A DNA stretch of 36,749 nt from a virus (IMGVR_UViG_3300017755_003289:1-36749); one strand, 5' to 3'. Shown: positions 1,197-22,704, counted from the stretch's first letter. Made by a program: numbers and translations. The notes: generated from the letters alone by a model not told the origin.

Positions 1197-1400
1197 TCAT
1201 TTTCAGAAAAGAAATTACCACCCCGGTCGCATAGTAATTTGATTTAAAAGTGTTTTTTTGGAAAAGGCAACGGCCCATGGTGGCAAAAGGACCTGGTGGC
1301 CGATAAAATACCCCCATATTAAAAAAAATGCACAGCAGTTTTTTACACTGTGCCATACCGAATCTGTGTATGCACTGTGTGAACCGCTATAAGTATTCGT
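1197..1400. other. Non-coding stretch with a short direct repeat and hairpins
   Basis: No convincing gene is seen here. The last bases of the previous gene, GGTCGCATAATCATTT (1187-1202), recur nearly unchanged at 1225-1240 (GGTCGCATAGTAATTT), as if a gene end had been duplicated and decayed. CGGCC near 1270 can pair with GGCCG near 1300. GCACAG and CTGTGC near 1330-1353 form a 6-bp hairpin with T-richness in the loop rather than after the stem, so it is not a standard terminator. A related CACAGCA-T6 motif recurs near 2340. Confidence 0.35.
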
Positions 1401-1469
1401 ATGTTCAATCTAGCATTTTGGCTCACAGTAATAGCAGTAAGCATCTATCTGGGCATATACGTATGGTGA
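1401..1469 (+). CDS. Possible 22-aa single-span membrane peptide
   Basis: A tiny frame, MFNLAFWLTVIAVSIYLGIY and two more residues, is a single hydrophobic helix. Its TGA stop (1467-1469) overlaps the ATG of the next membrane protein (1463), a typical translational-coupling layout. The start lacks a clear Shine-Dalgarno sequence; TATAAG lies about 7 nt upstream. Coding status is inferred only from hydrophobicity and the overlap. Confidence 0.35.
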   Translation: MFNLAFWLTVIAVSIYLGIYVW

Positions 1470-1681
1470 TACGAGTTGTTCAAGCTCTAGCAGGTGTACT
1501 AGCCTGTATCATGTGCATATTCATACTAGGACCACTGGCCATGCTGGTTGTGTGTGTCAGAGTGTGCAAACAGTGGATTATGTGCAGGAATGTGGACTAC
1601 ACAGATCTCAAAGCAGTGTATCCTATGTTCTGTGTGTTTGTGTTGCTGATACTGACCATCATGGGAGTTGCTCAGCTATGA
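1463..1681 (+). CDS. Small membrane protein, about 72 aa
   Basis: Two hydrophobic segments (about residues 5-30 and 53-70) flank a short cysteine-containing loop (VRVCKQWIMCRN). I do not recognise it. The frame is open back to 1328, but the part before 1463 is not protein-like and overlaps the hairpin at 1330-1353, so the ATG at 1463 is preferred. It overlaps both neighbours: the 22-aa peptide upstream and, by an ATGA junction at 1678-1681, the kinase-like gene downstream. This suggests the three are made together at the membrane. Confidence 0.55.
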   Translation: MVIRVVQALAGVLACIMCIFILGPLAMLVVCVRVCKQWIMCRNVDYTDLKAVYPMFCVFVLLILTIMGVAQL

Positions 1682-2304
1682 AACTCATAAAAGACACTCA
1701 TCAAGCCACAGTGACTCAAGACGGTGATAGAATCATCAAACAGTTCAAACCTGGCTACAAGTTTCTCCTGCAGGATCATGCACAGTGGCAACACACTCTC
1801 AATCAGTTTTCAGCTCGTCACAGGCATTTTCCCCGAGTGATAGAGTGCAGTGAGGACAGTCTGATCATGGCACGAGCACCGGGTCATGCTGTGTGGTCTG
1901 AGAGTCTTTGGCATGGGAAGAGCATCCAGGAAAAGATTGCACAGACCCAACAACTGCAACTGATGTATTTCACATTTGTGACTCATGTGCTACAACACAA
2001 CATAGAGCATCACACTCACATTGCTCATCATGATCTGAATGCCAACAATATGTTCGTGCATCAGGATCAATTGATCTGCATTGATCTGAATGCTGTGACC
2101 ACAGACAACCCTGGTGAGTACTACTGGATTGAGTTTGGAGCCAAAGAAATAGCCAAACGAACCAATCTGCTACAACGCCAACAGCAACAGCATCAGCACC
2201 GACTCACTGTGGCAGAGCTACAACGTCAAGCTCTTCAATCCAAAGAACGACTGACTCGACAGATAGACAAACTGCAAAAACAACTGAGACAGAGCAAAAA
2301 GTGA
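1678..2304 (+). CDS. Protein-kinase-fold protein (RIO/aminoglycoside/LPS-kinase-like)
   Basis: The 208-aa protein carries the catalytic signature of the kinase fold: HHDLNANN (HxDxxxxN catalytic loop, near residue 120) and, 13 residues later, CIDLNA, where the aspartate takes the place of the DFG metal ligand. A lysine in RIIKQF near residue 20 could be the ATP-binding lysine. The last ~45 residues are Gln/Lys-rich and likely coiled coil. The set resembles RIO, APH and lipopolysaccharide kinases rather than eukaryotic Ser/Thr kinases. The start at 1678 forms ATGA with the upstream membrane gene. Substrate is unknown; small, LPS or protein targets are all possible. Confidence 0.65.
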   Translation: MKLIKDTHQATVTQDGDRIIKQFKPGYKFLLQDHAQWQHTLNQFSARHRHFPRVIECSEDSLIMARAPGHAVWSESLWHGKSIQEKIAQTQQLQLMYFTFVTHVLQHNIEHHTHIAHHDLNANNMFVHQDQLICIDLNAVTTDNPGEYYWIEFGAKEIAKRTNLLQRQQQQHQHRLTVAELQRQALQSKERLTRQIDKLQKQLRQSKK

Positions 2305-2397
2305 CCTGCTCTGGGTGTTTCTCAGATCTAAAATTTTTACACAGCAATTTTTTTAACACAAACTAATACTCGGTTCACATCTGCATTAAATATTGCT

Positions 2398-3060
2398 ATG
2401 GAACAGCTTCTCACACACATATATCATCGTCAATCCAATCCTCTGCACTCAATAGTGAATTCAGATGGCAAGATAAACAAATGGTCTCTGCCGATAGAAC
2501 AGGATCTAGCATCAGCTGTGATTGTGGAAGTGTTGGAATACACCTACAACAATGTGAATCAATGGAAGTCTGAACCTGGAGATCACGGCACAGATCATCT
2601 GCGTTACAAACTGCCTCTGCCTGATTCTGCTCGTGGACCTGCACTCAAAGAACTGTACACAGTGTATTCAGAGAATGCTCGACCACACACAGAGGCACGC
2701 AATGCTCACTATGAGTTTGTCAGCATTGTGAGACCAGGTGGCACAGTGGGTCGTCACAACGATGTGCAACACATGAAAACGCCGCCTAAAGGATCGTCGC
2801 TGAGAAAGTCACGTTTCTCTGTGCAGTGGCCAGTGGACTGTGATTTTCGAGTGGACGGTGTGGGTCGATTGGATACTCGTCCAGGTCGTGTGTATCTGTT
2901 TGATCACTGTCGCAATCACTGGGTGGAGAATCGAAGCACCGACACAGACAAGATAGACCTCAGCATCATGATAAACTCTGCTCCTCAGTCAGCACGATTG
3001 AATCGAGCAGTGCTACACAGCATCGAAGAATGGTTTGAAGCCAACACTCTCACACTGTAA
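2398..3060 (+). CDS. 2OG-Fe(II) oxygenase-like protein (Asp/Asn-hydroxylase-like)
   Basis: The 220-aa protein shows the double-stranded beta-helix iron signature: H120-N-D122 (GRHNDVQ) and a distal H174 within RVYLFDHCRNHWVENRS, with K185 about 11 residues on as a possible 2-oxoglutarate ligand. It would couple 2-oxoglutarate decarboxylation to hydroxylation of an unknown substrate. It is distantly like the three tandem oxygenases at 10387-12466. It starts 93 bp after the kinase-like gene; TTAAATA lies 5 nt ahead of the ATG. Fold call is good, substrate unknown. Confidence 0.6.
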   Translation: MEQLLTHIYHRQSNPLHSIVNSDGKINKWSLPIEQDLASAVIVEVLEYTYNNVNQWKSEPGDHGTDHLRYKLPLPDSARGPALKELYTVYSENARPHTEARNAHYEFVSIVRPGGTVGRHNDVQHMKTPPKGSSLRKSRFSVQWPVDCDFRVDGVGRLDTRPGRVYLFDHCRNHWVENRSTDTDKIDLSIMINSAPQSARLNRAVLHSIEEWFEANTLTL

Positions 3061-3454: not shown

Positions 3455-4057
3455 ATGATAACATCACTCGCGGCCACCTCTTTCATATGGTTTAGAGAAG
3501 GTCTAGAAGCATTCCTCATAATTCAAGCCACGTGGATGCTCACAACCAACACAAGACAACGACTCGCACTGACACTCAGCACACTACTTGCAATAGCATC
3601 ATCAATCACACTCGGCTACTTTGCCATTGAATACATACAAAAAGATTTTGATCGTGTGGAAGCCTACACATCTCTAGTGGCATCAGCTCTGCTATTCTGG
3701 ACTGCCTGGTTCTGTCATGGAGCATCACAGCATCTGCACAACATCAAACACACCCTGACCAACAACCAAGTCAAAGGCACAGTGCTGGCTCTAGCAGTGA
3801 TAGTGTACCTCACAGTGTTCAGAGAAGGTGCAGAGATAGTAGCATTCTTGTTGGCTCTGTATGTTGCAGGCGCATCTCTGACCAGCATTGGATTAGGTGC
3901 AGTGATTGGATTAGGTGCGTTAGGTTTGGTTGGTTACACAGTTTCCAAACGAATACAGAAGATACCTGTTGCAAAAATATTTAAAACATCCAGATGGTTG
4001 TTTGCACTGATGGCAGTGTACTTCTTATACTATGGCATACACGAACTGTTAGAATAG
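3455..4057 (+). CDS. FTR1-family iron permease
   Basis: The 200-aa, strongly hydrophobic protein has both REXXE motifs that bind iron in the Ftr1/EfeU family: R14-E-G-L-E18 in the first helix and R123-E-G-A-E127 in the fourth or fifth. About six membrane helices are visible. It is short compared with many bacterial members (roughly 270-280 aa) but keeps both motifs, so it may be functional. It would import Fe3+ through the host inner membrane. No EfeO/EfeB partners are visible; the preceding gene encodes a small exported protein. An iron permease is very unusual cargo for a phage. Confidence 0.8.
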   Translation: MITSLAATSFIWFREGLEAFLIIQATWMLTTNTRQRLALTLSTLLAIASSITLGYFAIEYIQKDFDRVEAYTSLVASALLFWTAWFCHGASQHLHNIKHTLTNNQVKGTVLALAVIVYLTVFREGAEIVAFLLALYVAGASLTSIGLGAVIGLGALGLVGYTVSKRIQKIPVAKIFKTSRWLFALMAVYFLYYGIHELLE

Positions 4058-4999: not shown

Positions 5000-5380
5000 A
5001 TGTACGCATCAAATTTTGAATTAGTAGAAAACTTTATGAGAAGCATGAAGCAAGAAGTCAAAGATAGGCCCAGTTGGCCCAAAGGAGAGACTCAAGACCT
5101 CCGGGTAGATTTGATTAGAGAAGAACTAAATGAGCTAGAAGAAGCAATGTCAACAGGAACACTAGTAGATGTTGCAGACGCACTTACTGATATTTTGTAT
5201 GTTACTTACGGTGCCGGCCACGCATTTGGTATTAATCTAGACAAATGCTTTGAAGAAGTGCAAAATTCCAATATGACTAAACTTGACGAATCAGGAAAGC
5301 CAGTGTATAATGATAAAGGTAAAGTTATAAAAGGTGCAAGATATACAGCACCAGATTTGGATAAAATATTATATGATTGA
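5000..5380 (+). CDS. mazG: MazG-like nucleotide pyrophosphohydrolase
   Basis: The 126-aa protein is all-helical with the MazG/HisE-type metal-binding signature: RREELNELEEAM-like EExxE (REELNELEE) around residues 39-47, and DVADALTDILYV around residues 58-69, where the E/D pairs coordinate Mg2+. It would hydrolyse NTPs or dNTPs to NMPs plus PPi. Phage MazG proteins are proposed to adjust nucleotide pools or alarmone levels; this is common in marine T4-like phages. AGGAG lies 9 nt before the ATG. It overlaps the following MIP18-like gene by 8 nt. Confidence 0.85.
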   Translation: MYASNFELVENFMRSMKQEVKDRPSWPKGETQDLRVDLIREELNELEEAMSTGTLVDVADALTDILYVTYGAGHAFGINLDKCFEEVQNSNMTKLDESGKPVYNDKGKVIKGARYTAPDLDKILYD

Positions 5381-5777
5381 AACAACTGATGATATGATGA
5401 ACTCTCCGGGTAGCCCGGCTGTAGACCCTCATCTATCTTGCGACTTAAAAGACATTGAAGACAACACCGAAGCAAAAATAAAATATATTGAAAAAGTTAA
5501 AGAAGCTCTACAACGAGTATACGACCCGGAGATATCAGTAGACATATACAACTTAGGTTTAGTTTACGATGTAAAAATTACAAAAGACAATGCGGTATGG
5601 GTGCTGATGAGTTTAACATCAGCATTCTGCCCAGCCGCAGACATAATACCTCAAGACATAATCCAAGAGGTATCTACTGTAGAAGGTATTACTAAATGTG
5701 AAGTTAGAATAACAATGACTCCACAATGGGGCAGAGAAATGATAGAGCCTAATATTAGAGATATGATGGGACTATAA
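5373..5777 (+). CDS. MIP18/SufT (DUF59)-family Fe-S assembly protein
   Basis: The core VYDPEISVDIYNLGLVYDV is the classic DUF59 signature, and the motif around the conserved cysteine (SAFCPAAD, about residue 88) and the ending MTPQWGREMI match the family's TxxGCPxxE and PPWxxxxM. DUF59 proteins (SufT, PaaD, human CIAO2) help put Fe-S clusters into target proteins. The ATG at 5373 overlaps the end of mazG and is preferred over the frame's upstream ATG at 5334; ATGs at 5394/5397 are alternatives. The N-terminal ~30 residues are variable and acidic. It converges on the 5772-6023 gene with a 6-nt overlap. Confidence 0.8.
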   Translation: MIETTDDMMNSPGSPAVDPHLSCDLKDIEDNTEAKIKYIEKVKEALQRVYDPEISVDIYNLGLVYDVKITKDNAVWVLMSLTSAFCPAADIIPQDIIQEVSTVEGITKCEVRITMTPQWGREMIEPNIRDMMGL

Positions 5778-10386: not shown

Positions 10387-11169
10387 TTAAAACAGTTCTA
10401 CTCCACCTTGGTGTTCATCAGGATTATATAATCTGTGTGATTGGTTTGGTTTACAATATTTTTCAGTGTCTTCTAAATATCGAATACCGTTATACATTGT
10501 TTCTTGATCAATCCATTTCATTTCTATAAGTTCATCAACAAACTTATCGTAATCTATATCATCTATAGAAACATCCAACGAAACAATAGCACGAAGCTCT
10601 GCTGTGTTATTTCTTACCCAGTGCCATGCGTGTGTGTTCAACACAATTGGTTTTGCCATATTATACTCATGGCATTTGTGTTCGTGTTCCCATGGTGGGA
10701 ATTGATTTTTTCCATCGTCAACTCCTGCAGGTATTCTTGTTGTTCTATCAATATCGTTATTCCATTCCCAATACGATGAACCAACCCAAGCCTTGTCAAT
10801 GTCTTTTGGCATAGCAATAGGAACATTTACAGCGGCCGCTCTGTCTCGGTCTCTATGACATCTAATATGTCTGTTCTGTTTTTGTTCAAGTATACAAATC
10901 TTGTTGATGTATTTGGCCCATGGTGTGTCGTCCATGAGTTTTAAGAATCGTTCATTGTGTTCTGGATTATCTAGATCCGGATAATGTTTACCAGTTTTTG
11001 GATCAGCATCGTAATGATGAAACGGAATCCTCCATATAGATCCTTCGTCTTTTTGTTTTTGTTTCCCGGCGACTCTAGCATTAATAATATCCATACCAAG
11101 TTTAGCCCAAGCTTCAGTCCAACCTTCTGGTGGAGTTATAATTGTAATGTTTGATTTCATTTTATCCAT
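10387..11169 (-). CDS. 2OG-Fe(II) oxygenase-like protein, tandem paralogue C
   Basis: The 260-aa protein has H105-R-D107 in RHIRCHRDRDRAAAVNVPI, the distal H183 in NTHAWHWVRNN and R193 ten residues on, the expected 2-oxoglutarate-binding basic residue. The HxDRxRxxAxNxP block and the NTxxWHxV block are shared with the two upstream genes, so the three arose by duplication. An aspartyl/asparaginyl-hydroxylase-like fold is likely; substrates could be sugars, small molecules or peptides. It overlaps its upstream neighbour by 13 nt. Confidence 0.65.
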   Translation of the reverse strand: MDKMKSNITIITPPEGWTEAWAKLGMDIINARVAGKQKQKDEGSIWRIPFHHYDADPKTGKHYPDLDNPEHNERFLKLMDDTPWAKYINKICILEQKQNRHIRCHRDRDRAAAVNVPIAMPKDIDKAWVGSSYWEWNNDIDRTTRIPAGVDDGKNQFPPWEHEHKCHEYNMAKPIVLNTHAWHWVRNNTAELRAIVSLDVSIDDIDYDKFVDELIEMKWIDQETMYNGIRYLEDTEKYCKPNQSHRLYNPDEHQGGVELF

Positions 11170-11828
11170 CCGTAGTATTTAAGTTTGTCACACATAGCGT
11201 CGTAAGAAATATTAGAGCAATCAATTGAAAGCTGGCTCCTTGATTCCTGCGATAGGTTTAAAACTGTATGCCACGATCGTGTGTTAATCATATGACAACC
11301 GTTTATTTTAAATTCTGTTAACTCTTTAATAACCCTGTCTTCTATAGCATTTCTTTTTTCATCCCAACTACCGTCTGCTTTACAAGTTTCATACAGTTGA
11401 TATTCCGCATCAGATGTTTTTATATTGTGCATTAATAGTTGCGATTGTTTGGTAATGTGAATAGGAAAGTTTATAGCATAAGATCTATTCCTGTCCATGT
11501 GCAAAGGCAAAGAAGAATAAGGTCCAAACGTGAATAGTTTTATTTCAGTCACCTCAGAACGAAAAAAATCTCCAAACTCATCATCTATAGAAGTGTTCAG
11601 CCCACTGGTAATAATATTTTCATCCCACCCTTTGTTGTTACTGTACAACACGTGTCTTTCAAACTGACCAGTTTGACTTCGTTCTCCAGTGATAGGATTG
11701 TGACCTCTAATAGTTTCTTTCTCAACTTTTTGTACAACAACTTGTTTGTGTAGTACTGATTGACCAAGATTAGTTAATGCATCAACTAACTTGTTTGAAA
11801 ATGTTATGTGTGTTGCATTTACAGCCAT
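11157..11828 (-). CDS. 2OG-Fe(II) oxygenase-like protein, tandem paralogue B
   Basis: The 223-aa middle copy has H110-M-D112 (LPLHMDRNRSYAINFPI), H187 (NTRSWHTVLN) and R197 ten residues on. The complete iron and 2OG ligand set is present, so it should be active. It differs from its neighbours in the N-terminal 90 residues, which may set substrate choice. The start overlaps the previous gene by 10 nt. Confidence 0.65.
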   Translation of the reverse strand: MAVNATHITFSNKLVDALTNLGQSVLHKQVVVQKVEKETIRGHNPITGERSQTGQFERHVLYSNNKGWDENIITSGLNTSIDDEFGDFFRSEVTEIKLFTFGPYSSLPLHMDRNRSYAINFPIHITKQSQLLMHNIKTSDAEYQLYETCKADGSWDEKRNAIEDRVIKELTEFKINGCHMINTRSWHTVLNLSQESRSQLSIDCSNISYDAMCDKLKYYGWIK

Positions 11829-12466
11829 CCGGCGTCTCTAAAAATTTCAATAGTTTCTTCGTATGGAGTATAGTTAATGTCATAGGACAATATACTTCTT
11901 ACATTTTCAAATATACCGTTGGATAGTTTACGTATAGGTTTAGTAGCATCGTAGTTGTGATCAACCCAGTGCCAAGATCGTGTATTGAGTATCACAGGTT
12001 TCCCTAATTCGTATTTCTCACCTTCGTCGTCTAGATCAAATGTTGGATTCTGATCGTTTGGGTGCATCGTTAACCACTTTGGATCAATTGTGTTGTTTAA
12101 CTCGTGTCTGTAAACTCCTAGGTGTGTACCTGCAGGTATAACAACAGGAATGTTCAATGCACACTCTCTATCTCTGTCAATGTGTACTTTTTGAAATCTG
12201 CCATGCTTTAGATTCAACATCATTGCACCAGTTGTTATTTTAAGGATAGATTCTGGTATCCTAGATTGTATACTGTCATACAATTTGTTATGCTCAGGAT
12301 TATCACATATGGCCTTCCCACCTTTGTGTATACGTATTCTAAAGATAGAACCTTGATTAACAATTTCTTGTTTACCAGATTCAGCATCAGCTAACAGTGT
12401 CTTACACAAGGTTGTAATATCGTTCAACAAATCTGTTGGTATGTTTAATGCAGTATAGTTTTTCAT
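11819..12466 (-). CDS. 2OG-Fe(II) oxygenase-like protein, tandem paralogue A
   Basis: The 215-aa copy has H95-I-D97 (QKVHIDRDRECALNIPV), H166 (NTRSWHWVDH) and R190, later than usual because of a short insertion. It is closest in motif wording to paralogue C (10387). The ATG forms an ATGA overlap with the stop of the PLP-enzyme gene, indicating coupled translation. Confidence 0.65.
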   Translation of the reverse strand: MKNYTALNIPTDLLNDITTLCKTLLADAESGKQEIVNQGSIFRIRIHKGGKAICDNPEHNKLYDSIQSRIPESILKITTGAMMLNLKHGRFQKVHIDRDRECALNIPVVIPAGTHLGVYRHELNNTIDPKWLTMHPNDQNPTFDLDDEGEKYELGKPVILNTRSWHWVDHNYDATKPIRKLSNGIFENVRSILSYDINYTPYEETIEIFRDAGWL

Positions 12467-16003: not shown

Positions 16004-16077
16004 TAATTCCTCCCCATGTGTTTAGGACCGTGATCACGACTAATCCAATCTAATAATCTATACCAATTCTTACGCAC
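16003..16077 (-). CDS. Possible 24-aa peptide after the Rieske gene
   Basis: A GTG-started frame overlaps the end of the Rieske-type gene by 8 nt and ends in TAATG with the next gene. The sequence VRKNWYRLLDWISRDHGPKH is protein-like (Trp, Arg and amphipathic) rather than random AT-rich translation. It may be a coupling peptide or the remnant of a longer protein. No clear ribosome-binding site is seen. Confidence 0.35.
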   Translation of the reverse strand: MRKNWYRLLDWISRDHGPKHMGRN

Positions 16078-17128
16078 GGTATGGATCTAGATTTAGATAC
16101 TTCCCCCATTCGGTATAATAGTGTCGCATACCGACTTCGTCGTGTATAGTTCCGTTCTCGTGTCTACCATGCAGTATACGTCTGTTCTCTGTGCCTTCAC
16201 GCATTGTTGTTCCTTGCCCAGCCACTCCTATTAGGTCTTCGTGTAGGTTACGTCCAAACGGTCCCCATATTGAGTTGTGATGGTTAACACGAGTTAATCT
16301 TTCTTCTGGTGTGTCTTTGCGTAGTCCATATCCTCTAAACTCTATTAGTACTTTGTTTGGTCCTAGTGGAGTTACTGAGTCTGAACGATATGCACTTCCT
16401 CGTAGGTTAAAATTGAATCCTGGAAATAGGTCAACCATGTACCACTGGTTGGGCGGCAGGTTAGGAAAAGATAATTCTCCGCGGTCTTCAAAACCGTCAT
16501 ACTCAGTATAGTTAACAGTAAAGCTAGACACGTTGACATGACCATTATCAAAAGGAACATTTTTTCTAGCGAAGTACTCATCATTGAATCCCGACACACG
16601 ATTGAAGTAGTGCATGAAGTCATGATAAAATTCTGAGTTGGTATCATGCCACAACTTGTAATTGGTATTGATGACTGCTTTGTGATAATGAAATACTTCT
16701 AGTTCTTCTGTGTCAATAGCATCAGCAATACAATCAAATGCACCTGCTGTCCATTCATCTACAGACTGCGTAGGATTAGGATCAAGTGTTACCCATACCA
16801 TTCCTCCGTGCTTTACTTCACAGTGTAGTTTAGGTTCAACTGTTACAACAGGTGCTTTAAATGTACCGCTTGGTTGACTAACTCCATAGTTTCGCCATGC
16901 ATGAACACGTTTGCCAGTGTTGTATGCAAGTACGTTTACACCTGCTATCTGTGAAGTTCTAAAGTCTCCTTGTTTATACATTTCACTAATGTGACATATA
17001 GGAACCCAAACCTTACTAAAGATCTGTTCTTGTTCTTGTGCAAATATTTCGTAGTTGTTGTAGCATCTGCTACTGATAGACTCTACCTGTGGGGCTTTTA
17101 GCCATTGAGTGTGATTACGAGGTGGCAT
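16070..17128 (-). CDS. Rieske-type oxygenase alpha-subunit-like protein lacking Rieske cluster ligands
   Basis: The 352-aa protein keeps the catalytic domain of Rieske non-heme iron oxygenases: YKLWHDTNSEFYHDFMH supplies H169 and H173, and RNLHEDLIGV supplies D298, the 2-His-1-carboxylate iron site. The N-terminal half follows the Rieske-domain layout (SKVWVPICHISEM, RVHAWRNYG, GGMVWVTLDP), but where C-x-H and C-x2-H should bind the [2Fe-2S] cluster it reads HAWRNYGVSQPSGTF and is shortened. Its only cysteines (22, 45, 103, 133) do not form the motif. The normal electron route is therefore missing. AAGGAG precedes the ATG. fpr lies upstream in the same orientation. I infer an altered or regulatory enzyme. 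Confidence 0.78.
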   Translation of the reverse strand: MPPRNHTQWLKAPQVESISSRCYNNYEIFAQEQEQIFSKVWVPICHISEMYKQGDFRTSQIAGVNVLAYNTGKRVHAWRNYGVSQPSGTFKAPVVTVEPKLHCEVKHGGMVWVTLDPNPTQSVDEWTAGAFDCIADAIDTEELEVFHYHKAVINTNYKLWHDTNSEFYHDFMHYFNRVSGFNDEYFARKNVPFDNGHVNVSSFTVNYTEYDGFEDRGELSFPNLPPNQWYMVDLFPGFNFNLRGSAYRSDSVTPLGPNKVLIEFRGYGLRKDTPEERLTRVNHHNSIWGPFGRNLHEDLIGVAGQGTTMREGTENRRILHGRHENGTIHDEVGMRHYYTEWGKYLNLDPYRA

Positions 17129-17625: not shown

Positions 17626-18366
17626 TTAGGCCGCGAATGCTTTTTCGTACACAAAGTTGCCAATGGCAGAGTGTGATCCCACAGTCCATCCACCCTGTTT
17701 CATAGTGTCGATCATCTGTCTGTTGAAGTCAGGTCCGCCACATATCATAACAGAATCTGTTTCAGGTTTCCATGGATCTGTCTGCAATGCTTCAAACACT
17801 TTGCCTGAATCAATGAGATCTGTTATTCTTCCTGTGTTTGGAAATGCACTGTCTCTAGTAGTGGTAGGAAAATATTGCAGTCGCGGTGTTTCTGTGCCTG
17901 CTGTGAGATACATAAAGAAATCTCTGTATGCAAGGTCTTCTTGTTGTCTTACTGTGTGACATACAAATATTTTGTTGAATCTAGTATACGTTGCTGGATC
18001 TCGACAGATACTAACAAAAGGTGCAATACCTGTGCCTGTAGCAATCATCCACAGGTTTGTTTTAGGTGTTAGTATGTCAGCCAACAGTGTGCCAGTTGCT
18101 TTAGGAGCCACTGTTACAGAGTCTCCCACTTTGATATCTTTTAACTTTGACGTTAGCGGACCATCCGGCACAATAACTGATAAGAATTCCAAATAGTCTT
18201 CACCTGGGCCACTCACCATTGAATAGGCTCGAAACAACTTGGTTCCGGGCAATCCAATCATTGTGAATTCTCCAGCTTCAAATCTAAAACTTGCCGATCG
18301 AGTAGTTTTGAACGAAAACAATCCGGAATTGATATGATTTACTTCTGTTACAGTTTCTGTTAGCAT
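17626..18366 (-). CDS. fpr: Ferredoxin/flavodoxin-NADP+ reductase
   Basis: The ~246-aa protein is a bacterial FNR: FAD-binding RAYSMVS (about residues 47-53), NADP-binding MIATGTGIAPF and VMICGGPDF, and the C-terminal VYEKAFAA, as in the alphaproteobacterial FPR subclass (ending in EKAF). It passes electrons between NADPH and ferredoxin or flavodoxin. The frame is open to 18429, but the ATG at 18366 begins the conserved region and coincides with the predicted +1 of the promoter at 18373-18401. It leads the unit fpr-17212-Rieske-type gene. It could feed the non-heme oxygenase directly or via a host ferredoxin. Confidence 0.88.
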   Translation of the reverse strand: MLTETVTEVNHINSGLFSFKTTRSASFRFEAGEFTMIGLPGTKLFRAYSMVSGPGEDYLEFLSVIVPDGPLTSKLKDIKVGDSVTVAPKATGTLLADILTPKTNLWMIATGTGIAPFVSICRDPATYTRFNKIFVCHTVRQQEDLAYRDFFMYLTAGTETPRLQYFPTTTRDSAFPNTGRITDLIDSGKVFEALQTDPWKPETDSVMICGGPDFNRQMIDTMKQGGWTVGSHSAIGNFVYEKAFAA

Positions 18367-18372
18367 TATTAT

Positions 18373-18401
18373 AATATACAGCCTTTCTTCGAGTGTGTCA
18401 A
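18373..18401 (-). promoter_or_regulatory. sigma70-like promoter giving a leaderless fpr transcript
   Basis: On the minus strand, TTGACA (18401-18396), 17-bp spacer, TATATT (18378-18373). The predicted +1 falls on 18366, the A of the fpr ATG. The GCGTAAA repeats lie 44-106 bp further upstream. Confidence 0.7.
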
Positions 18402-18444
18402 CATTAAATTTATTATTATAGAAACTCAACGAGGCGGAAATCGT

Positions 18445-18507
18445 TTTACGCTTATTTACGCTTACGCATTTCTAAAATTTACGCTTTACGCAAAATTATT
18501 TTTACGC
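18445..18507. repeat. Cluster of six TTTACGC repeats
   Basis: Five exact copies of TTTACGC start at 18445, 18455, 18478, 18485 and 18501, with a sixth near-copy, CTTACGC, at 18461. All are in one orientation, within 63 bp. The region lies upstream of the fpr promoter and overlaps the end of the 18486 gene. Iteron-like direct repeats suggest a protein-binding array: operator, enhancer or origin element. Confidence 0.7.
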
Positions 18508-18695
18508 GATTGCATCGCTTTGTTCCCCCATGCCTCTGGACATATACTTTTCATTGCATTAATAATTTCTTCTGCTGTCCACGTTCCGTACATCTTTTTG
18601 TGCATGAATGCTTTTTGCTTATCCAATTCAATTTCGTTATGTAATTCTTTAACAAATGTTTCTAAGTACTCTTGCTCGGTTAATGTTTCTTTCAT
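18486..18695 (-). CDS. Hypothetical helical protein, 69 aa
   Basis: Not recognised. Charged and helical (MKETLTEQEYLETFVKELHN), with WTAEEIINAMKS and one cysteine. It starts 17 bp after the btuB-like stop and is probably the third gene of the riboswitch-controlled transcript. Its stop codon lies inside the TTTACGC repeat cluster. Confidence 0.55.
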   Translation of the reverse strand: MKETLTEQEYLETFVKELHNEIELDKQKAFMHKKMYGTWTAEEIINAMKSICPEAWGNKAMQSRKNNFA

Positions 18696-18712
18696 TTTAT
18701 ATACAAATTATA

Positions 18713-20551
18713 CTAGAACTTCAGTTTGTATGTCAACAGCATATTCCTTCCATGTTGTGCATAACCATCTGGTCTTTCGTACGTTTCGTCTAGTGCATTG
18801 TTCAATGAGAACACTATATTAGACTTATCGTTTATTTGATAGTTTGTATGGAAATTTGCAACACCAACTGATGGTTTCATTATTGTTGCATAAGTGGTAG
18901 AGTCTATGTCCAGGTGTTCTCCTGTGTACAGATACTCTGCAGTGTTAGTCCACTTGTCCATGTTCCAATCAACAGCAGTTAGTCCTAACCATTTTGGTCT
19001 TCTAGTTACTGAAGTGTTAGTACTGTCCTCTGCTACTGTCCATGTTGCATTGTTTCTCCAATAAACATTTTCAGCAATCAGACTGTTGAACTTCACTTCT
19101 GCACCATGTCTGTTTGATGTGCCCGAAGCATTGGAGTATGTGCTGTTACCATACGTTATTAGATTTTGTAAATCAGTTGTGAAGTAAACAACGTCCAACA
19201 CACTGTTGTTGAAACTGTATTCAAATCCAATGTCCATTGTCTCTGCCTCTTCTGGCTGTCGGTTTGGGTTTCCGTTGTAACCGTAGTTGTCGGAACCGTG
19301 CATTTCATACAGGGTAGGAGTCTTCACAGATGTTGCATAGTTGCTCTTTAATTTCAATGCGCCTGTTAGGTCGTAAGTTCCGCCCAGTCTGTATGTGGTG
19401 TAGTCACTAAACAGACTTGGATCATCTTGTCTGATACCTGCTGACACTAACAACTTGTCTGATGCTATAAAGTTACCGTTAACAAAGTATCCTATGTTCT
19501 CGCCATTAGTGTCTACTTTGGCAGTGTAACTTCCAGTGTTGTTGAATGAACCATCAAAATATTCATACTCTATGCCTGGTGTGATGTCATACTTGTTTTT
19601 CAGTATAGTATTTGTTAACAACACAGTGTTACTAGTAGAATCATATGTGTCTACCTCTGTGCCATTAACATACTCTCTGTCGTACTCTGTACGAGAAAAT
19701 GTAATGTTGTAAAACCCAAGACTATTGTCTACCTTGCTTGACAGTTGATAAAGATTCATATCACTCTCAGCAGTGTAGTCAAGGTCGTCACTGCCACTAG
19801 CGTCTAGATCTGAATCACTTGTTCTTCTGATCAATGTTGATCTTATTTCAAGACCATCATACTTACTTTTTGTGTTAACTGTAATATTGTTTGCATCAAA
19901 TCCATCTTTCTCTGTTCCAGCCGGTGCAATAGATATACCATCAGATTTTGTTCCGTCCGCTATCATGCTGATAGAATGATTGTTGATATCTCTGTGTATC
20001 TTGAGTGTTATACCTTTGGTGTTGTTGGATCCTATTGTTGTAGATATGCTGTTGGCATAACTGTCTGTTGTTATAAAGTTTATTACTCCACCAACTGCGT
20101 TAGCACCATACAGTGTACCTTGCGATCCTTTGACTACTTGTATTCCTGTAACGTGTTTTATAAAGTCAGAACCTATATCGTGCAGTCCGCCTGTTGTAGA
20201 ATGGTCTTTGATTGCAACACCGTTAATAGCAACCATTGTATGATTAGAGTTCATGCCTCTCATGAACACTGATGTTTGCTGTCCTGTGGGACCAGACTGT
20301 ACAACATTCAATCCAGTTATTCTGGCTATTGCTTGTACTGTATCTATAGTGTTTGTGTTCTCAATAGTGTACTGATCAATATAGTCTACACTCATTGATT
20401 CTGTTGTAAGGACACTTGGATCTCTCAGTACGAATTTTGTTATTTTTATGCATGGAGTATTATCCTCCCATACACATTCTTTAGATTGCTCTGCCTGTGA
20501 CCCTGTGTGGAAAAACAATAATGTTAAGACTGCTAGTAATGTTTTCTTCAT
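18713..20551 (-). CDS. btuB: TonB-dependent outer-membrane receptor, BtuB-like (cobalamin)
   Basis: The ~612-aa protein has a signal peptide (MKKTLLAVLTLLFFHTGSQA), a plug domain (IDTVQAIARITGLNV; VFMRGMNSNHTMVAINGVAI; QVVKGSQGTLYGANAVGGVI) and an alternating beta-barrel ending in LTYKLKF with terminal Phe, as outer-membrane barrels need. The plug motifs are canonical for TonB-dependent receptors. Substrate B12 is inferred from the cobalamin riboswitch upstream. AAGGAG before the ATG at 20551 fixes the start. Size is close to E. coli BtuB (594 mature aa). The gene overlaps the previous one by 71 nt. A complete receptor on a phage genome is exceptional. Confidence 0.85.
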   Translation of the reverse strand: MKKTLLAVLTLLFFHTGSQAEQSKECVWEDNTPCIKITKFVLRDPSVLTTESMSVDYIDQYTIENTNTIDTVQAIARITGLNVVQSGPTGQQTSVFMRGMNSNHTMVAINGVAIKDHSTTGGLHDIGSDFIKHVTGIQVVKGSQGTLYGANAVGGVINFITTDSYANSISTTIGSNNTKGITLKIHRDINNHSISMIADGTKSDGISIAPAGTEKDGFDANNITVNTKSKYDGLEIRSTLIRRTSDSDLDASGSDDLDYTAESDMNLYQLSSKVDNSLGFYNITFSRTEYDREYVNGTEVDTYDSTSNTVLLTNTILKNKYDITPGIEYEYFDGSFNNTGSYTAKVDTNGENIGYFVNGNFIASDKLLVSAGIRQDDPSLFSDYTTYRLGGTYDLTGALKLKSNYATSVKTPTLYEMHGSDNYGYNGNPNRQPEEAETMDIGFEYSFNNSVLDVVYFTTDLQNLITYGNSTYSNASGTSNRHGAEVKFNSLIAENVYWRNNATWTVAEDSTNTSVTRRPKWLGLTAVDWNMDKWTNTAEYLYTGEHLDIDSTTYATIMKPSVGVANFHTNYQINDKSNIVFSLNNALDETYERPDGYAQHGRNMLLTYKLKF

Positions 20552-21068
20552 CGTCCGTATATCTCCTTGATATGTTTGTTGCCGAGTAGGACACAAGACT
20601 CAAAAGAGAAACGTAAAATAAAGTACCTGCCAGTGTGTTGCCAAAGAACGGAATTGCCATTGTGTAGCAAAGTATTAGTCCGTCCAGTGTAGGTGGGTAC
20701 ATTGTACCAGACATCCATACCGCAAAGTTTGTTATCACAAAAAATATTGTTGCTGACAACAGTGCGTTGGATCCCAGATGAACATACGTTTTCTTCATAG
20801 ACATTGTGTAATGACTCAATGTAGTGCCTAACAAGATACTGGCGTAAACCCAAAACATACTTGAATGTAAACCCAAGTAAAGATCCGAAACAAACATAGC
20901 CAACAATGGTACTAGCATAGCCGAATATAGATCACGTGTCAGATATGGCATGAACACTGCCATTGCAAGTACAGGTGTGAAGTTTGGTGGATGAGGTATT
21001 ATCCTACTCAAGGCAATCAAGCCTACGAGATAGAAGAATAACACAATCTTTTGTTTTGTTTTTTTCAT
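20481..21068 (-). CDS. DUF6580/ECF-S-like membrane protein, candidate B12 transporter component
   Basis: The ~195-aa hydrophobic protein has about five or six helices and the landmark RIIPHPPNFTPVLAMAVF near the start, with SDLYLGLHSSMFWVY after the third helix. I associate this with the DUF6580 family, which resembles ECF transporter substrate-binding subunits. Its place directly behind a cobalamin riboswitch and ahead of btuB suggests B12 or precursor uptake across the inner membrane. The ATG at 21068 is chosen because GAGAA precedes it; ATG 21080 and GTG 21104 are alternatives. The last ~23 codons overlap btuB. Confidence 0.68.
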   Translation of the reverse strand: MKKTKQKIVLFFYLVGLIALSRIIPHPPNFTPVLAMAVFMPYLTRDLYSAMLVPLLAMFVSDLYLGLHSSMFWVYASILLGTTLSHYTMSMKKTYVHLGSNALLSATIFFVITNFAVWMSGTMYPPTLDGLILCYTMAIPFFGNTLAGTLFYVSLLSLVSYSATNISRRYTDDEENITSSLNIIVFPHRVTGRAI

Positions 21069-21127
21069 AACAGTTCTCATTAAACGTGTTAACGTTAATG
21101 CCACTGTTAACTTTACATTGTAGAACT

Positions 21128-21240
21128 AGACTTTCCCAGGCCCTCGCTCGACAGCGGACTTATACTGGTTGGCACTCCGACTTTACGGTTCCTGGAAGAG
21201 CCATGGAATTACACCTTGATTCCCCAACATGATTCAGTAT
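21128..21240 (-). ncRNA. Cobalamin (AdoCbl-type) riboswitch
   Basis: Read on the minus strand, the region contains the riboswitch core in order: GGGGAATC, GGTGTAATTCC, ACCGTAAAGTCGGAGTGCCA (the core ending in the B12 box), then GTCCGCTGTCGAGCGAGG and GCCTGGGAAAG. These match the conserved GGGAA, GGUGnAA-UCC and the ACnGUnA...GGAGUGCCA blocks. B12 binding normally turns such operons off. It lies between a promoter (21248-21276) and the DUF6580-like/btuB genes. Confidence 0.9.
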
Positions 21241-21247
21241 TACTAGT

Positions 21248-21276
21248 AATTTATATTAAAATTGTAGTGATGTCAA
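21248..21276 (-). promoter_or_regulatory. sigma70-like promoter of the riboswitch cassette
   Basis: On the minus strand, TTGACA (21276-21271) with TATAAA (15-bp spacer) or TAAATT (17-bp spacer). It starts 10 bp after the helicase stop, so the cassette has its own promoter inside the replication block. Confidence 0.6.
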
Positions 21277-21285
21277 CCGTTGTGG

Positions 21286-22704
21286 CTAAAGCTCTTCATC
21301 AGAGTGTAGTTCGTTTAGTAGTTGACGTAATTTTCCACCTTCTACTTCTGCTTTTACTTTGCCTACACTTTCACCTTTTCTAGGATCAGGCTCTACAGGT
21401 GTCCCAGGAGTAACTTTAGATTTTTGTTTTAATGAATCATATATGCTACTTTTATTTTCTTTAAAGCTCTGTGCTTCTTCTTCACTTAAATCAGATATTC
21501 TTAAACTATCAATATTAAATTCCAAATCAACTTTTTGTCCTACTCCAGAACTGGATCTAGTTTTCATAAATTGTACTTGATATCTTCCACGCTCTTTCAT
21601 TGCTCTACTAGTAAAAATACCAATTACATTATCTGCTGTTTGGATTTTTGAAAGTCCTCCTGCAATATGCGAATGATCAAACTCAATCTCTTCTACTGAT
21701 GCTCTGTTCAACTGAGATGCTGTTGCCATTAGTAGCTGACTTTCTACTGCATAGTTTCTAAGTTCTTCTGAAACATATTTGTCTTTAATAAACAAATCTG
21801 CTGGCGATATCTTTTTACTCTTAGGCATCATTAGATCTAAGTAATCTATTAAAATACATTCTATTTTTTTCTTTGTTTTTAATTCTAATTCTTTAATGTA
21901 AGATTTAATATCAAGCACAGTACTCCCACTAGATAGATATTTGATATGTAATGCACCAGCTTTTTTGGCTAACATCTTAACTTTCATTTCAACAGTATCC
22001 ATTTCTGGAAAAACTTTTCTTGTTGGCATATTAGTCATCATTGCATCAAGTCTCATTGCAGTAAGTCCTTCGCTTAATTCAAAACTAATGTAAACGGTGT
22101 TAAGGCCAGCCAGTGACCAATTTACTGCAAGATTCTGTAGAAATAAACTTTTACCTGCACCTGATCCGCCTGCAAAAATGTTTAGTTCTCCTCGGTTAAA
22201 TCCACCGAACAGTTTCTTATCTAAATTGTTCCAGCCTGTACTGACCTGACCGTTGGAGTTTTTTAATAACTCCAATCTACTTTTTGGATCTGCAAAGTAG
22301 TCTGTTCCAAGATCTCTTGTTAAGCCAATGTTAACAGCATCTTTAACCATATCCTCAACTGGTGCATAATCTCCTTTTTCTAAAAGGTCTGCAGATTGAA
22401 GAATTGCTCTTTCTAAAGATTTATGTCTTGAAAATGTTTCAAACTCGTCTAATAGCCAATTAAAGTGATTTGGATCTAGATCTTTTGCTGATTTAAAGCC
22501 TACTGTAAATTTAGAATTTACTTGTTCAACCTCTGGCATAACTTTATATTCTTCAGCATAATCTTTAATAAATTTTGCTACTGGTTGTAGCTTACGATCA
22601 AAGTTCAAAGGTTCAAAAATGTTTTGTGCTCTTGCAAACGATTCTGCATCTGCCAGCATCATTTCCATATACAACTTTTGTACATCATGTGTATAATCAG
22701 GCAT
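21286..22704 (-). CDS. 41: DnaB-type replicative DNA helicase (T4 gp41-like)
   Basis: The 472-aa protein has Walker A GGSGAGKS (about residues 178-185), Walker B ILIDYLDLMMP and the later SQLNRASVEE (DnaB motif H3/H4 region). The N-terminal 170 residues form the helical interaction domain. It would be the hexameric 5'-3' helicase at the phage fork, working with the primase encoded immediately upstream (8-nt overlap). An acidic C-terminal tail (LHSDEEL) is typical of this group. Length matches T4 gp41 (475 aa). Confidence 0.92.
   Translation of the reverse strand: MPDYTHDVQKLYMEMMLADAESFARAQNIFEPLNFDRKLQPVAKFIKDYAEEYKVMPEVEQVNSKFTVGFKSAKDLDPNHFNWLLDEFETFSRHKSLERAILQSADLLEKGDYAPVEDMVKDAVNIGLTRDLGTDYFADPKSRLELLKNSNGQVSTGWNNLDKKLFGGFNRGELNIFAGGSGAGKSLFLQNLAVNWSLAGLNTVYISFELSEGLTAMRLDAMMTNMPTRKVFPEMDTVEMKVKMLAKKAGALHIKYLSSGSTVLDIKSYIKELELKTKKKIECILIDYLDLMMPKSKKISPADLFIKDKYVSEELRNYAVESQLLMATASQLNRASVEEIEFDHSHIAGGLSKIQTADNVIGIFTSRAMKERGRYQVQFMKTRSSSGVGQKVDLEFNIDSLRISDLSEEEAQSFKENKSSIYDSLKQKSKVTPGTPVEPDPRKGESVGKVKAEVEGGKLRQLLNELHSDEEL

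Follow-up and report, generated by a model that had tools for sequence, protein, structure and literature searches.

The window, that is, the whole stretch of DNA analysed here (an IMG/VR record of 36,749 bp), carries on its minus strand a compact cassette in which a sigma70-like promoter is followed by a cobalamin riboswitch, the gene for a DUF6580 inner-membrane protein and the gene for a BtuB-like TonB-dependent outer-membrane receptor, located directly after the gene for a gp41/DnaB-like replicative helicase (Table 1). All the parts that the sequence-only reading had listed in this order were found. The promoter starts nine bases past the end of the helicase gene, and promoters consisting of TTGACN and a TATAAT-like element are present at a like upstream distance in eight related records (L003, L012, L004, L007, L039, L130, L150 and L151); the two protein-coding genes overlap by 71 nt. 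The limits initially assigned to the cassette, 18486-21276, enclose its main parts but at the 18486 end also take in a separate ORF of 69 aa, which probably lies outside the cassette unit because it has a promoter of its own.

Table 1. Positions of the cassette elements and of other features of the window
Feature	Position	Strand	Remarks
gp41/DnaB-like replicative helicase	21286-22704	-	context, outside the cassette; phrog_19, E 4e-66
Sigma70-like promoter	21276-21248	-	-35 TTGACA / 17 nt / -10 TAAATT; 10/12 matches
AdoCbl-II cobalamin riboswitch aptamer (RF01689)	21240-21162	-	cmscan, E 5.6e-20
Expression platform, 93 nt	21161-21069	-	three short pairing motifs before the ATG
Platform motif 5'-GTCCGCTGT	21159-21151	-	upstream pairing partner
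Platform motif AACAGTGGC	21108-21100	-	middle pairing partner
Platform motif ACTGTT	21074-21069	-	immediately ahead of the ATG
DUF6580 inner-membrane protein, 195 aa	ATG 21068, stop 20481	-	PF20221
BtuB-like TonB-dependent outer-membrane receptor, 612 aa	ATG 20551, end 18713	-	Plug + barrel
Promoter of the 69-aa ORF	18736-18707		12/12 matches
FAD/NAD ferredoxin-type reductase	17626-18429	-	beside the Rieske-type oxygenase
Rieske-type oxygenase	16070-17128	-	PF00848
DNA polymerase III alpha piece, 201 aa	25036-25641	-
Short FTR1-family iron permease	3455-4057	+	PF03239
MIP18/PaaD-like iron-sulfur cluster assembly protein	5346-5777	+	PF01883

The riboswitch is indeed of the cobalamin kind, as had been read from the sequence, but not of the family that had been named: the canonical cobalamin riboswitch model, RF00174, reaches only 18.7 bits in the window, below its cut-off of 31.5, so that the leader RNA is assigned to the AdoCbl-II class, whose covariance model RF01689 matches over its full length (positions 1-81 of 81) with 84.2 bits against a gathering cut-off of 36.5. 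This short riboswitch class was first named 'AdoCbl-variant', from marine sequences (PMC2864571). P1 and other aptamer stems covary across nine phage leaders, and, judging from the class of the RNA, the aptamer would bind adenosylcobalamin and alter the expression of the genes behind it. The possibility that L5 of the aptamer forms a loop-loop pairing with GAAT, a motif further downstream, was weighed as well and dropped, given that the window itself has GAGC at this site.

The surroundings of the cassette are those of a phage genome and include, apart from the helicase, a primase, a UvsW-like helicase, a piece of a DNA polymerase, a ClpP resembling head proteases and several families known only from phages. 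PA5oct-type jumbo phages have a helicase with 52% identity to the one found here. The stretch from the helicase to the reductase is repeated at 100% in another record (L002), and L003, from another sample, has the series from the helicase through the riboswitch and DUF6580 to the receptor with proteins 77-85% identical, followed past the cassette by a gene for DNA polymerase III alpha similar to those in other phage records. The left (helicase) junction is found again, as far as the cassette start, in two more records, L009 and L012. Because the junctions recur in these four records, chimerism at the cassette borders is very unlikely, and the core of the sequence-only reading, a riboswitch-controlled B12 uptake cassette carried by a phage within its replication block, is supported by the covariance model, the Pfam and NCBIfam families, the predicted structure compared with BtuB and the recurrence of the helicase-riboswitch junction in other IMG/VR records.

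Scans with both proteins yielded eleven further viral records in which DUF6580 is followed by the receptor at 64-100% identity, one of which (L014) ends inside DUF6580; the riboswitch is present in every one of the eleven that includes the site, and the identity of the cassette proteins among these records goes down to about 60%. One of the eleven is G001, a jumbo-phage contig of 242,646 bp, whose cassette has in its vicinity, as read from the sequence, genes resembling those for UvsX, UvsW, a primase, ThyX and a helicase; its UvsW is 63% identical to that of the window. More distant viral loci have the pair of DUF6580 and receptor in either gene order, with receptors 32-51% identical; L150 and L151 (as well as L172, a near copy) still carry the riboswitch, and none was detected above the cut-off in the loci with the order receptor-DUF6580 (L153-L156, L163 and others). 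In a further set of viral records (L133-L147, among them L138, in a record of 170,818 bp), DUF6580 mostly lacks a neighbouring receptor match, and L144 alone has an AdoCbl-II riboswitch.

The same parts occur in operons of SAR11 and other marine bacteria, so one might imagine that the contig is a fragment of a bacterial chromosome, a prophage border or an assembly chimera, and the cassette a host operon. Yet phage replication genes adjoin it on the left, phage genes flank it on both sides in the relatives, several records share it at 60-100% identity, the viral receptors form one clade, and the order DUF6580-receptor in the group of the window is the reverse of that in most bacterial operons; we regard a host operon as next to inconceivable.

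The receptor contains the Plug (PF07715, 61 bits) and barrel (PF00593, 103 bits) domains of TonB-dependent receptors, and PF20221 matches DUF6580 with 139 bits against a gathering cut-off of 27, in agreement with the family assignments made from the sequence. The top NCBIfam model for the receptor is TIGR01779 (TonB-B12), with 215 bits, far below the curated BtuB equivalog cut-off of 599.7, compared to 97 bits for the best non-B12 family. BtuB is also the best match among PDB sequences (E 5e-26, nearly full length) and, in the structure comparison proposed in the sequence-only reading, the best fold match for the AlphaFold2 model (pLDDT 84.5; 1nqg, E 7e-38, TM 0.90). Thus, BtuB of E. coli, with which the window receptor shares the whole plug and barrel, is its nearest solved relative in both sequence and fold, whereas the identity is only about 20% and the phage-encoded protein falls short of the equivalog score.

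For DUF6580, previously described as ECF-S-like, the affinity can be narrowed to BtuM. The AlphaFold2 model (residues 1-168 of 195, pLDDT 93.6) has as its best structural match the cobalamin-bound BtuM 8ovv (Z 15.4, 2.6 A, 159 residues), with other ECF S-components trailing by 1-2 Z units; the top 23 VIA-align rows are all S-components or their close kin (Z 10.7-15.4) and cover nearly the whole model. BtuM ranks first in Foldseek too, though the best E is only 0.03. Comparison with PDB sequences gave no match for DUF6580, and a profile search of the PDB gave a weak one, to 6fnp (E 0.02). BtuM of Thiobacillus denitrificans acts as a solitary S-component, taking up B12 with no need of an ECF module, and has an invariant cobalt-ligating Cys80 in loop L3 (PMC6072759). 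Both proteins are of about 20 kDa, and BtuM, as the phage DUF6580 presumably would, serves Gram-negative cells alongside BtuB; they are, however, only 16% identical, and between helices 3 and 4 of its model DUF6580 has a mostly conserved His68 (53 of 65 sequences) and no conserved Cys. Cys134, found in 62 of the 65, lies outside the helix 3-4 loop, and no residue alignment with BtuM was obtainable in which an equivalent of Cys80 could be placed. By position, and likewise outside any alignment, H26, D62 and Y75 of DUF6580 resemble H28, D67 and Y85 of the BtuM pocket, which we do not count as evidence. The pN/pS values of DUF6580 (0.14-0.39) and the receptor (0.18-0.29; helicase for comparison, 0.17-0.50) indicate purifying selection on both proteins.

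The match between DUF6580 and BtuM is one of predicted folds, and a shared fold by itself does not demonstrate function; the association of DUF6580 with cobalamin riboswitches in bacterial operons is additional support for B12 as the probable substrate, as the BtuB-like sequence and predicted fold are for the receptor, so that the B12 specificity originally ascribed to both proteins from the riboswitch now has independent support. Could the two importers work on another cobamide, cobinamide, some other compound resembling B12 or a chelated metal, with the riboswitch persisting as a bacterial leftover? The low identity of the receptor to BtuB and its score below the equivalog cut-off leave room for such a substrate. 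But B12 models outscore siderophore and haem models on the receptor by more than 100 bits, and bacterial DUF6580 genes are repeatedly linked to cobalamin riboswitches; a substrate other than B12 therefore seems unlikely to us.

The bacterial side of this argument comes from scanning genomes with an alignment of DUF6580 and then running cmscan on 38 of the loci. In SAR11, some SAR116 and Ignavibacteria, RF00174 or RF01689 is found about 2 kb before DUF6580, with a btuB-like gene between them. An alphaproteobacterial genome (L052) has the order riboswitch, DUF6580, receptor and B12-binding radical SAM gene, and in three other SAR116 genomes the receptor and DUF6580 genes are convergent; B12-binding radical-SAM genes are also close by in three SAR11 loci (L083, L090 and L097). 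In the receptor tree, the viral sequences form a single clade (SH-aLRT 95) with the SAR11 pair L059/L073 as its sister, and the leaders of this pair have the viral aptamer class and platform motif. The AdoCbl-II-btuB-DUF6580 operons of SAR11 (Pelagibacteraceae; L059, L073 and others) thus share with the phage cassette the riboswitch class, the platform motif and homologous receptor and DUF6580 proteins, but are chromosomal, have the order receptor-DUF6580 and encode receptors only about 24-26% identical to that of the phage. In the DUF6580 tree, most viral copies group together, and SAR116 and other alphaproteobacterial copies are nested among them. The source of the cassette is likely to be alphaproteobacterial. 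As for the host, the window helicase had no match at E 1e-60 among 385 genomes from the class to which a SAR11 genome belongs, and 136 SAR116-order genomes contained no close receptor, the best match (E 2e-51) being of the bacterial type.

How would the leader respond to the coenzyme? The middle platform motif AACAGTGGC, with its AACAGT, can pair either with the upstream GTCCGCTGT or with ACTGTT, but not with both at once. All three motifs are near-invariant in the nine phage leaders, and hence covariation hardly tests the two exclusive pairings. The SAR11 leaders L059/L073 have the motif altered to GACAACGGC together with GCTGTT; when the phage register is applied, both partners of one pair have changed and another pair no longer forms, and in a shifted register, read by eye, AACGGC-GCTGTT pairs fully. 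Folded to its energy minimum, the window's leader contains the start-codon hairpin, and it is likely built as a translational OFF switch, off at high adenosylcobalamin; the form favoured by the ligand is assigned by analogy with known cobalamin riboswitches. In known cases, such as btuB of E. coli, a cobalamin riboswitch ahead of a gene for B12 uptake acts as an OFF switch. The upstream GTCCGCTGT-ACAGTGGC stem is the one preferred when a consensus fold is computed for the nine aligned phage leaders, and if the ligand favoured it too, the element would be an ON switch or would sense B12 for another purpose, such as timing. We consider this quite improbable, given the uniform behaviour of the known riboswitches in front of uptake genes and the little gain to be expected from making uptake proteins when B12 is plentiful.

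The scheme that best accommodates these observations is one in which host RNA polymerase would transcribe the cassette from the sigma70-like promoter. With plentiful adenosylcobalamin bound to the aptamer, AACAGT-ACTGTT pairing at the start codon would keep translation off; with scarce adenosylcobalamin, AACAGTGGC would pair with the upstream GTCCGCTGT, free the start codon and allow translation of DUF6580 and the overlapping receptor gene. The receptor would then move cobalamin across the outer membrane with the help of host TonB, and DUF6580, as a BtuM-like S-component, would carry it through the inner membrane, so that the infected cell would stay supplied with B12 for its B12-dependent enzymes and, in some related phages, for those of the phage as well. 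The analysis establishes which elements are present, how they are conserved, what they are homologous to and how the proteins are predicted to fold; binding of the ligand, the sense in which the RNA switches, transport and any advantage from it are inferred. It appears quite probable that the cassette serves a large marine phage of the T4-like kind as its own operon for vitamin B12 import, expressed conditionally.

BtuB is a receptor for phages and colicins, and TonB-dependent receptors in general are known to serve phages in this way. The receptor of the window keeps the entire barrel and plug, and might replace or mask the host BtuB, in which case the cassette would mainly block or alter superinfection and B12 transport would be incidental. 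This role, which we deem improbable, leaves the conserved B12 riboswitch and the co-conserved inner-membrane S-component unexplained; moreover, a newly made receptor adds binding sites instead of removing them.

If B12 import is indeed the function, who benefits? The recurrence of the cassette across related ocean phages suggests a B12 top-up of the starving host during infection. The idea that B12 is supplied for a phage class II ribonucleotide reductase does not hold up so far: the reductase encoded in both G001 and G003 is the B12-independent class I NrdAB, NrdJ is not found above the cut-off in 22 records, some of them incomplete, and the B12-binding domain PF02310 is absent from the window and its nearest large relatives, of which G001 is incomplete, the incomplete records weakening this conclusion. 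NrdJ is carried by SAR116 genomes, and some phages with DUF6580 (L199, L141, G032, G037, G038, G046 and G051) encode radical-SAM proteins, most of them with a B12-binding domain; in view of these, host or phage B12 enzymes, methionine synthase included, could be the beneficiaries. In L199 and L141 the radical-SAM genes (1288-3048 and 10458-12239, respectively) are within a few kb of DUF6580.

The cassette may be described as a riboswitch-controlled auxiliary metabolic operon, and, on balance, we favour the view that, in one lineage of T4-like jumbo phages from the sea, the phage gauges how much coenzyme B12 the infected cell contains by a riboswitch of its own and, when B12 is low, installs a complete import route across both membranes. 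The vitamin is in short supply in the ocean, where the majority of bacteria are unable to make it. If this view is correct, vitamin supply becomes a regulated viral function in the ocean and viral replication is tied to vitamin limitation, with B12 uptake joining the known release of B12 by phage lysis (PMC12456174). It would also point to DUF6580 as a B12 transporter of many marine bacteria, and thus as a testable answer to the question of the inner-membrane partner in the many species that have BtuB but lack BtuCDF.

Neither a phage cobalamin riboswitch nor a phage B12 import operon was found in the literature, of which subscription papers and preprints were thinly covered, so that priority is unproven. 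Metabolite-linked RNA control is familiar from marine T4-like phages, namely the glutamine riboswitch of the methylophage Melnitz and the pelagiphage Mosig and the manA/wcaG motifs of cyanophages, but these have other ligands and target genes, and none controls vitamin import (PMC9004378, PMC2864571). Similarly, the marine megaphage Mar_Mega_1 encodes a TonB-dependent receptor, which is, however, of the SusC type, with no riboswitch or inner-membrane partner reported (PMC9723777).

Several other genes of the window deserve mention. The Rieske-type oxygenase, which weakly resembles oxygenases of glycine betaine and anthranilate, and the neighbouring reductase possibly form a two-component oxygenase, a further pair of auxiliary metabolic genes beside the cassette; an iron permease and an iron-sulfur cluster assembly protein are also encoded in the phage contig. 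DNA polymerase III alpha occurs in separate short pieces, as a split replicative polymerase, with pieces of 546-564 aa in relatives (L003, 4586-6280; L166, 964-2604). The first 4500 bp of the window have a G+C content of about 45%, compared to 32-41% elsewhere, and still contain phage-like genes (phrog_1250).
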